Shown: positions 43,290 to 52,646 of the stretch, one piece after another | Layout: every line of letters starts with the position of its first letter | Position numbering within the stretch: the first letter of the stretch is position 1 | NCBI GenBank assembly: GCA_032622095.1 | Contig: CP136068.1 | Location: 121,523,989 to 121,587,988 of the forward strand | DNA: 64,000 nucleotides | Reading direction: 5' to 3' | From: Siphonodentalium dalli | Lineage: Eukaryota > Mollusca > Scaphopoda > Gadilida > Siphonodentaliidae | Notes under the pieces: model-generated | Seen by the model: the letters and a program-made list of their open reading frames with translations, nothing else | The model's database searches: none | What the model was told of the DNA's origin: nothing | Program-made: the position numbers and the translations under genes

Positions 43290-43975
43290 TATGGTGCTGG
43301 ACATTTGCAGAATGAGGTCTGTAGAGGGTGAATTTAGTGAAGCTACCCCGCACCATGGGCTATCATCAATAATTCACCCTCTGGGGACCTCATTCTGCTT
43401 AGGCCTCATCTTCTCTGGAAAGTGTATTTATTATCAAATTAACAAATGTTGTAGTTTCTTAACCCTTTGAGTGCCAGGTCCGATTTTTGTATCAACCCAT
43501 ATACCCTGTGCCAATGCATTCTCTTATATATGCGAGTCGACCATAGGTCGCCTCGCATATATAAGAGAATGCATTGGCTTAACAGTTTGTTTTGTTTTTT
43601 TTTTTACTATTTTTTACAATTTTAATATATTTTATTATATTCTTTAACAGACTTATTGTGTAGGTTTAGGGCCGATAATATCGGCCCCTGGCACTCAAAT
43701 GGTTAAGAAACTTCTTTACAAATTTTCTTTTTTAGTTTAGTTTCTCTATATTCCCCAATTGGCAGACAACACAATGCATAATCGAGGTGCACATCACCAT
43801 CTTCACAATCAGGGATCTTAAATCTGAGTCTGTGTCACCCATAGCAGATGAGGCCATGCAGAATGAGGTCCCCATAGGATGAATTTAGTGACAATAGCCC
43901 GCTGTGCGGGGTAGCATCACTAAACTCATCCTCTGGGGACCTCATTCTGTAAATGTCTGGCACCGTATTTTTGAG
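43290..43975. mobile_element. Composite hairpin-ended MITE (copy 5) with nested TTAA MITE
   Basis: Left hairpin 43311-43400, right hairpin 43857-43950 (CATAGGATGAATTTAGTG / CTAAACTCATCCTCTGG). The interior is interrupted at GTTTCTTAA by the element at 43459-43706. It lies directly downstream of the SELENOS SECIS. Confidence 0.75.
43459..43706. mobile_element. TTAA-type MITE, TTTGAGTGCC family (copy 3), nested
   Basis: CCCTTTGAGTGCCAGG to CCTGGCACTCAAATGG with TTAA at 43459-43462 and 43703-43706; the host sequence GTAGTTTC|TTAA|GAAACTTC closes up when it is removed. Very similar to 40308-40547. Confidence 0.87.
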
Positions 43976-44005: not shown

Positions 44006-44097
44006 TATAACAGACACCAACACAACCACATCAGCACATTCTGTGAGAGCAGGTCTCTTGTCAGAATGTGTTTCATTAAAAGTTGTGTCATGTTATA
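44006..44097 (-). promoter_or_regulatory. SECIS element of SELENOS (type II)
   Basis: Read on the minus strand from 44097 to 44006. Helix I is formed by TATAACA/TGTTATA (44091-44097 with 44006-44012) and ACACAAC/GTTGTGT (44082-44088 with 44020-44026). The SECIS core is ATGA at 44073-44076 opposite TGAT at 44030-44033, the non-Watson-Crick quartet. Helix II is CACATTCTG/CAGAATGTG (44062-44070 with 44035-44043), a perfect nine pairs. The apical part is ACAA, GAGA, CCTGC, TCTC: conserved AA followed by a four-pair mini-helix, making it type II. It recruits SBP2 and the Sec-tRNA elongation factor so that the TGA about 1.29 kb upstream is read as selenocysteine. Confidence 0.92.
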
Positions 44098-44789
44098 TAC
44101 AATGAGAGCCCGAAGTAACGCTGTATTCCCTGATGTGACAACCTACACAACAAATATGATTACGATTAACATGGCATGATCATTAGGTCCATAAATAATA
44201 AGCTAATTTTGTAAGGCTGGTTCAAATGCGATAACTATGGTTATACTCTTTAGTTAACTGTTTGCGGTGGTTTGGAGGTTATATTGCTTAATTATCCATT
44301 TAGTCCTGCCCCTCCTGGGATCAAAATATGTCCATAAATATTGATAAATATGTGAAATACTGATGAGTTCAGTCAGCAATATACCATATAGGTATATCTC
44401 AAAGTATGTATACATAATTATCAGGTTCAAACAAGCCATGTCCATTTAAAGTTAAGTCACAAATCTCAGAAAGTTAGTAGTGTACTAGTATTCAGTGTTA
44501 TCACAATGAAGTCGATATTGGGCGATTATATATAATCAATATTTACAGATTTATGTTAGATCACGCTCTCATTGTGTCTCATGAACACAACTTGGTTATG
44601 GAGTTATCTGTCCCCACCATATGGAAATGTCAGTAATATATTGCACGTAAATTAGTACATAGTTAGAATGACACAAGTGTCTGAACTGTATGTTCACTAC
44701 TGGAATGTTATTCACCTATCAATGACATATCCATACGAAAGGTCAACAAGTTTGTGTGCGATTTTCTCAACACCAACAATTTGCATCAA

Positions 44790-44925
44790 GATTAGGTTTA
44801 AAGGAACACAAGGTGCTCGCTGTTGATAAATATGCAAAAAAAAACAAAAACAAAAAAAAGTCTGTAAAACATCACCACGAAGAAGAGCATGAAGAAATAG
44901 ATAAACTTTCTTCTCGTATTTATTA
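44790..44925 (+). repeat. Dispersed repeat, CAGTGGGTAAATG family (copy 3)
   Basis: GATAAATATGC, A-rich tract, GTAAAACATCACCACGAAGA and GAAGAAATAGATAAAC. It lies in the SELENOS 3' UTR, antisense to the gene. Confidence 0.5.
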
Positions 44926-45361
44926 TTGATTGTTCTCAAATAATGAAATTTTGTGTGTTGAAATCACTGTTATGTAAACAAAACTAAAACAGTGATTTGT
45001 CAACAACCATGCTAATCGCATAGTAAGTTCATATATTTTGGTCTGAATTTTGGTCATCATATTTTCAATCCTTTGACCTTTTCCAATGTTTTAATACCGT
45101 CAAGTTTTGATGATAAATTTGGTATCTTGTTTATCTAATTGGCCTTTGATCGGCAATGCCACTGTAACAGTAATGTCTAGATAACTATTATTTGATTTGG
45201 GAAATCATGTTATTGAGAGTTCTTAATAATGAAAATAAGAACAAAATGATATTTGTTTTACAGATTTTTCTGTTGTTTCACATGAATCAACTTCAAAGGC
45301 CTTGAGTCCCTTTAAGCACTACTCTTGATTTGTTGGTATGAGACACAATTGCACACTTTCA

Positions 45362-45444
45362 TTAACCTCATCCTCCTCCTGTGTTGCCTCGACTTCCACC
45401 GGGACGATATGTACTTTGTCCTGCTCCCATCAGTGGACTAAAAT
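45362..45444 (-). CDS. SELENOS: Selenoprotein S (SELENOS/VIMP), last coding exon with in-frame TGA (Sec)
   Basis: On the minus strand, acceptor TTTCTTGTAG precedes 45444. With the split Asp codon it reads DFSPLMGAGQSTYRPGGSRG, then NTGGG, TGA, GGT, TAA. The TGA (45368-45370) is the selenocysteine codon: the human protein also ends with PL-G, a W/Y-RPG segment and GG-Sec-Gly at exactly the same penultimate position. Frame and length fit with no change (26 residues here including Sec). A stop-codon reading would remove Sec and the last Gly only. The human Cys174 that forms the selenenylsulfide with Sec188 aligns with Ser in QSTYRPG, and no Cys occurs in either visible exon. The intron upstream is 7.1 kb (45445-52570). 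Confidence 0.93.
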
Positions 45445-52570: not shown

Positions 52571-52646
52571 CTGTCTGTCGTAATTTGTCTTTGTTGGATT
52601 TCTGTGAGCCATCTGTCTTTTTAGCTGATGTGGTTGTTTCTTGTGG
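52571..52646 (-). CDS. SELENOS: Selenoprotein S (SELENOS/VIMP), penultimate coding exon
   Basis: On the minus strand, acceptor TTTCACAG lies at 52647-52654 and donor GTTGGT at 52565-52570. The exon is 76 bases: 25 codons plus one base (G), which joins AT of the last exon to give Asp. It begins PQETTTSAKK and ends KSNKDKLRQT. The human protein has KPQEE, a Ser/Thr-rich linker and a KSDRKPLR segment in the same order and spacing before the glycine-rich tail. SELENOS is an ER membrane protein of the Derlin/p97 degradation complex; this exon is part of the cytosolic low-complexity linker after the coiled coil. The coiled-coil and membrane exons should lie further upstream (higher coordinates); none was recognised within the window. 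Confidence 0.88.

Follow-up and report, generated by a model that had tools for sequence, protein, structure and literature searches.

The window, i.e. the whole 64,000-nucleotide stretch of DNA that was analysed, contains on its minus strand the 3' end of a gene that, judged from its sequence, is an animal SELENOS (VIMP), and the TGA codon near the end of its reading frame is very probably read as selenocysteine (Sec) via a hairpin that follows downstream. The best explanation, which we regard as highly probable, is that this sole recognised SELENOS gene of the genome decodes UGA as Sec with the help of a SECIS element in its 3' untranslated region (3' UTR). What is observed in support of this explanation are the exons and their phases, the homology, the hairpin, and genes for tRNA-Sec, for eEFSec and for a member of the SepSecS family. 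The SELENOS family is well known, and the present copy is a further member of it with some unusual features.

The following exons were recognised on contig C8 of the genome, which comprises 2.23 Gb in nine contigs:

C8:121646226-121646363, minus strand: SELENOS exon 2, with the membrane helix, outside the window
C8:121641783-121641889, minus strand: SELENOS exon 3, outside the window
C8:121640016-121640099, minus strand: SELENOS exon 4, outside the window
52571..52646, minus strand: penultimate SELENOS exon, coding for PQETTTSAKKTDGSQKSNKDKLRQT, phase 0 in and phase 1 out, with AG/GT borders and an in-phase join
45362..45444, minus strand: coding part of the last SELENOS exon, DFSPLMGAGQSTYRPGGSRGNTGGG-TGA-G-stop, the first residue split over the splice, aligned to human SELENOS

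These five exons span about 78 kb, with introns of 4.3, 1.7, 63.4 and 7.1 kb between them. The four donors that were placed are GT and the five acceptors AG, all exons are in phase, and no stop codon lies ahead of the TGA. The acceptor of the exon 52646-52571 reads TTTCACAG and its donor GT, and this exon, ending in phase 1, contributes the G of the codon that is split by the last intron. That intron is 7,126 nt long, which agrees with an earlier note on this DNA that had placed the small exon 7 kb from its neighbour. The last exon starts at 45444 (minus strand) after TTGTAG and is read as AT TTT AGT CCA CTG ATG GGA GCA GGA CAA AGT ACA TAT CGT CCC GGT GGA AGT CGA GGC AAC ACA GGA GGA GGA TGA GGT TAA. 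A retrocopy was considered and rejected, because the gene has introns. The exon numbering presupposes an exon 1; a tblastn search of the 20 kb upstream with the human N-terminus did not reveal this exon, which would hold the start codon.

The joined product of 161 residues matches the Pfam family Selenoprotein_S (PF06936) at positions 31-192 of 192 with an E-value of 3.8e-37 and 128.5 bits, which bears out the earlier reading of the last-exon frame as selenoprotein S. In case of the two window exons alone, the Pfam match (E 2.1e-6, 28.2 bits) stays just below the curated cut-off of 29.8 bits. When the genome was searched with PF06936, both candidates matched (one above the cut-off), and both are exons of the SELENOS gene, on the same strand and 52-54 kb past the window end; the other three exons were missed by that search, and the exons outside the window were found by reading the matched stretches and a further 20 kb upstream. 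This search thus recognised a single SELENOS locus in the genome, and among 14 control genomes one matched, below the cut-off. The coiled-coil part of the product matches the human SELENOS structures 2q2f (E 1.8e-6) and 5kiu (E 3.5e-6). A putative membrane helix, YGWFILIGVLVLLYM, is encoded in the first exon that was found; it lies inside the profile match, and the human helix region, used as query, matches with E 0.023.

The product shares with human SELENOS/VIMP the membrane helix, the coiled-coil with a EEKRRQKIEMWD-like stretch, the RPG segment, the GG-Sec-Gly ending with Sec as penultimate residue, and the SECIS in the 3' UTR; in an alignment with the human sequence, in which Sec is written as C in both proteins, 61 of 155 aligned positions are identical. 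The gene differs from the human one by its 63.4-kb intron and by a SECIS that is 1,294 nt off, with a repeat between. The codon in question is the following:

45368..45370, minus strand: TGA in frame, predicted to encode selenocysteine, with GGT and TAA (45364-45362) next, aligned with Sec188 of human SELENOS

The protein ends with GGG-TGA-Gly-TAA, and the predicted Sec codon is therefore the penultimate one. That the frame passes through TGA and continues with Gly and TAA, as had been claimed, was confirmed at 45370-45362 on the minus strand. The claim that the protein ends like animal selenoprotein S holds for the RPG and GG-Sec-Gly segments and fails for the Cys that partners Sec in the human protein. 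In the alignment to human SELENOS, the position of human Cys174 is occupied by Ser, and the translation of exons 2-6 contains no Cys at all, as the sole C among the 162 aligned letters is the placeholder of the Sec codon. Human Cys174 is the proposed partner of Sec188 and is said to bound the most conserved SelS region (PMC3628699), although the Cys partner is a feature of the human protein and no condition of the Pfam family. Among the literature matches listed for a loss of Cys174, none was about it by title or by the start of the abstract. The p97-binding motif RX5AAX2R, which is described for human positions 78-88 in a paper that also names contact residues (PMC5725882), deviates from its consensus, as these positions read I-IEGHE-RA-RQ-K, with R78 replaced by Ile and A84 by Arg. 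Of the contact residues named, R86 and K88 are kept, and besides R78 also L82 (His), M89 (Leu), L93 (Phe) and V97 (Ala) are exchanged. The SelS stem-loop 1, which is described directly 3' of the stop codon of human SELENOS, was not seen here, and the 3' UTR folds weakly over its initial 40, 50 and 60 nt (-1.7, -3.7 and -5.0 kcal/mol).

The hairpin to which the decoding of this TGA is ascribed was recognised by folding and by a pattern scan, and has the following parts:

44014..44093, minus strand: SECIS-like hairpin of type II shape
44089-44081/44027-44019, minus strand: helix I
ATGA 44076-44073 / TGAT 44033-44030, minus strand: quartet
CACATTCTG/CAGAATGTG, minus strand: helix II, nine pairs

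The hairpin contains in addition an internal loop and a four-pair mini-helix. Counted from the first base of the SELENOS TGA, its ATGA at 44076 follows at 1,294 nt on the same strand, which matches the claimed distance of 1.29 kb, and folding confirmed the quartet, the nine-pair helix II and the mini-helix that the earlier note had described. The fold has -26.8 kcal/mol and a z-score of -2.43, equally good folds occurred in two of 200 shuffles, and the hairpin is kept in the minimum-energy fold with 121, 181 and 301 nt of context. The apical AA stood up only in part: in the best fold, one of the two A residues is paired (AGAG/CTCT, -13.9 kcal/mol), while the register with a free AA (GAGA/TCTC), the only other one that was computed, is 1.3 kcal/mol weaker. 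The eukaryotic SECIS core AUGA ... AA ... UGA with helices I and II is thus present, with the AA fully unpaired in the weaker register only. With its ATGA/TGAT quartet, helix II, internal loop and extra mini-helix, the element resembles a type II eukaryotic SECIS (the type classes are described in PMC3965025), and it differs from such elements by the partly paired AA of the best fold and by the missing match to the Rfam model. Almost all SECIS elements of non-sponge invertebrates have been described as AUGA_AA (PMC3473315).

In the pattern scan of both window strands, in which helix II was scored as pairs minus mismatches, six candidates had a helix II score of at least 8, and a score of 9 was reached only by the SELENOS hairpin, which also has the longest helix I (10) of these six. 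As a guide only, the limits of the scan having been chosen with this hairpin already known, 500 random 64-kb strands with the dinucleotide frequencies of the window contained a helix II of at least 9 together with a helix I of at least 7 19 times (0.0008 per 1.3 kb), and together with a helix I of at least 10 three times (0.0001 per 1.3 kb); in an earlier set of 300 random strands, the combination with a helix I of at least 7 occurred 20 times (0.0014 per 1.3 kb).

The Rfam model SECIS_1 (RF00031) did not match the hairpin, neither at the gathering score over the whole window nor at E 5 (1,601 nt) or E 10 (111 nt). Genome-wide, where the best 150 of 40,523 candidates were scored, this model gave seven weak hits, none of them above the cut-off and the SELENOS hairpin not among them, and by eye no selenoprotein was recognised in the frames upstream of the seven hits. 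The model thus seems to be generally weak in this 2.2-Gb genome, despite clear signs of Sec use. Two near-identical SECIS-like hits, C3:277402919 and C3:276423749, lie 0.98 Mb apart in a duplicated stretch, and no selenoprotein frame was seen upstream by eye. The SECIS stretch of SELENOS has a single match in the genome, which is itself, and one scan of viral contigs found no relative. Right downstream of the SECIS, at about 43858-43949 of the window, there is a palindrome-like repeat (gaatgaggtccccag ... ggggacctcattc), and similar palindromes were noticed by eye near exons 3 and 4.

Sec decoding depends on further components, and genes for several of them were looked for in the genome. Above the model cut-off of 47 bits, 14 of 53 scored candidates are tRNA-Sec genes, and ARAGORN also identified all 14 as tRNA-SeC(tca):

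C3:91435809-91450537, 209349595-209355725, 210156485 and 221239887: tRNA-Sec genes

Nine of them form an array, in which a 5.4-kb unit with three genes occurs three times, three others are clustered, and the remaining two stand alone. Thirteen of the 14 are identical over 86 nt, and in all 14 a G follows at position 73, with a T-run shortly after; the eight genes whose upstream 40 nt were inspected have a TATA-like motif in common. Flanks are shared between the three clustered genes and the gene at 210156485 (3' 98-99%, 5' 76-78%), whereas they are unlike (about 47-58%) between the array, this group and the gene at 221239887. As the nine array genes lie in three near-identical units, the assembly could have inflated the count, but at least eight tRNA-Sec genes differ in their flanks, because the three genes of a unit are each flanked differently and five others are found elsewhere on C3. 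The gene is apparently amplified. A degenerate copy with 29.3 bits is located at C3:91452069. In addition, C8:163268000-163272000, with hits up to C8:163411082, contains a tandem array of a 1.7-kb unit with tRNA-Arg, Ser, Thr and Leu genes, and one of the tRNA-Ser genes of each unit scores 46.2 bits, just below the tRNA-Sec cut-off.

SepSecS-family exons are present on C2, although this model was also above its cut-off in three of 14 control genomes and is not specific alone, and domain III of eEFSec was found on C9 with E 7.6e-38, with a match in none of the 14 control genomes. Moreover, a C-terminal frame of a SELENOP gene (C9:191601190-191610026, minus strand) contains 37 in-frame TGA codons, which are meaningful only with TGA read as Sec, and an N-terminal exon of this gene has an additional one. 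SELENOP proteins with dozens of Sec residues have been described, with 46 in oysters and 132 in one bivalve (PMC8230778). The Sec-rich SELENOP thus makes a mollusc plausible, without establishing the bivalve to which the earlier note had pointed. When up to 9 kb past SELENOP were scanned with looser limits (a helix II of 7, ATGA or GTGA, AA or CC), three SECIS candidates emerged, of which one lies 1,013 nt past the frame and has the AUGA-13 nt-AA spacing of the SELENOS hairpin. The heavy Sec demand of SELENOP fits the tRNA-Sec copy number. Given the genes for tRNA-Sec, SepSecS-family protein and eEFSec and the TGA codons of SELENOP, it is almost certain that TGA is read as Sec in this animal, and together with a hairpin that is rare by chance, the tRNA-Sec, SepSecS-like and eEFSec genes make Sec decoding of the SELENOS TGA very likely.

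The long distance between TGA and SECIS is partly due to a repeat, which also carries a candidate poly(A) signal:

44798..45315, minus strand: dispersed 518-bp MITE-like repeat with TTAA at both ends, in the 3' UTR, past the stop codon and ahead of the SECIS
44919..44924, minus strand: AATAAA in the repeat, ahead of the SECIS, candidate for an early poly(A) signal
43631..43636, minus strand: AATAAA past the SECIS, candidate for the poly(A) signal of the full-length mRNA

The ends of the repeat, TTAAAGGG...CCTTTAA at 45315-44798, were determined by an alignment of eight of 39 copies. TTAA ends are a footprint of piggyBac-type elements. The repeat is abundant in the genome: the matches listed include 39 long non-self ones with 73-81% identity and another 16 that are shorter (best 40 of 4,430 candidates scored). 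It accounts for 0.5 kb, and without it the distance from TGA to SECIS would be about 780 nt. Further hexamers are ATTAAA at 45095, in the repeat, and ATTAAA at 43626, after the SECIS.

If the early AATAAA were used, the mRNA would lack the SECIS and the protein would be two residues shorter. How else, then, could the TGA and the hairpin be understood? The reading that survives best is compatible with the preferred explanation and would be an addition to it, namely that the gene has two products, a Sec form from the long mRNA and a form shortened by two residues from an mRNA that is cut at the AATAAA of the repeat and has no SECIS. The insertion of the repeat would then have made a switch akin to the primate SECIS-less SELENOS splice form, and a SECIS-less mRNA variant, generated by splicing, is indeed described for human SELENOS (PMC3628699, PMC5133445). 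The AATAAA at 44924 lies inside the 518-bp repeat, 848 nt ahead of the SECIS, and is followed by a T-rich stretch at about 44859-44836; this stretch is rather distant from the hexamer, however, and hexamers of this kind occur frequently in AT-rich DNA, as the ATTAAA at 45095 in the same stretch illustrates. We consider a second product rather unlikely.

Far less probable is that the TGA is an ordinary stop codon, that the hairpin arose by chance or is decayed, and that this SELENOS has no Sec. The missing match to Rfam SECIS_1, the long distance of the SECIS from the TGA and the loss of Cys174, the partner of Sec in the human protein, as a loss of Sec might entail it, would fit such a reading, but a hairpin by chance at this place is unlikely (expected, as a guide, 0.0001-0.0014 times per 1.3 kb), the ending GG-TGA-Gly-stop is retained, and the Sec machinery is present with an apparently amplified tRNA-Sec. 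That the SECIS belongs to another selenoprotein transcript of the same strand, as 1.3 kb and a repeat between TGA and SECIS might suggest, is barely credible, as no other coding exon was noticed by eye from 45361 to 44094, and as the SELENOS TGA needs a SECIS, for which this hairpin is the only window candidate with a helix II of at least 9.

For the preferred explanation, in which UGA is decoded as Sec via the SECIS of the 3' UTR, we infer transcription of the gene, use of the SECIS, Sec insertion and a location of the product in the ER membrane. A ribosome would encounter the UGA two codons from the end, while the SECIS in the 3' UTR would attract eEFSec with its tRNA-Sec as well as a SECIS-binding protein, and Sec would thereby be inserted as penultimate residue. 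The product, as predicted from its sequence, would cross the membrane once and have a coiled-coil on the cytosolic side and a flexible tail, rich in Gly, that ends in Sec. As the recovered protein has no Cys, an internal selenosulfide as in human SELENOS is impossible, and the lone Sec would likely react with an outside thiol. We tentatively propose, as a possibility with somewhat less than even prospects, that SELENOS kept the Sec codon and the SECIS here although the Cys partner and the consensus p97-binding motif were lost, that Sec works by itself on external thiols or peroxides instead of forming the internal selenosulfide switch suggested for human SELENOS, and that the repeat that splits the UGA from its SECIS is tolerated and offers a SECIS-free mRNA end.

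C-terminal Sec codons, including that of SELENOS, tend toward annotation as stops in vertebrate databases (PMC12822975), and a correct SELENOS model with Sec is therefore worthwhile. SelS is listed among the selenoproteins of a sponge, Nematostella, amphioxus and Ciona (PMC3473315, PMC2874816), and in a 2012 survey the SelS row has no entry for the mollusc Lottia or the annelid Capitella (PMC3473315); a Sec-containing SELENOS in a possible mollusc would extend this survey. Among the literature matches listed for mollusc selenoproteins, none was on molluscan SELENOS by title. The 14 tRNA-Sec genes elsewhere in the genome may deserve more attention, and with its inserted repeat the gene offers a natural experiment on how widely UGA and SECIS can be separated. 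If the missing Cys turns out to be general in the lineage, the gene would moreover put to a natural test the idea that SELENOS exists for the sake of the Cys-Sec bond, as the Sec codon is retained without it.
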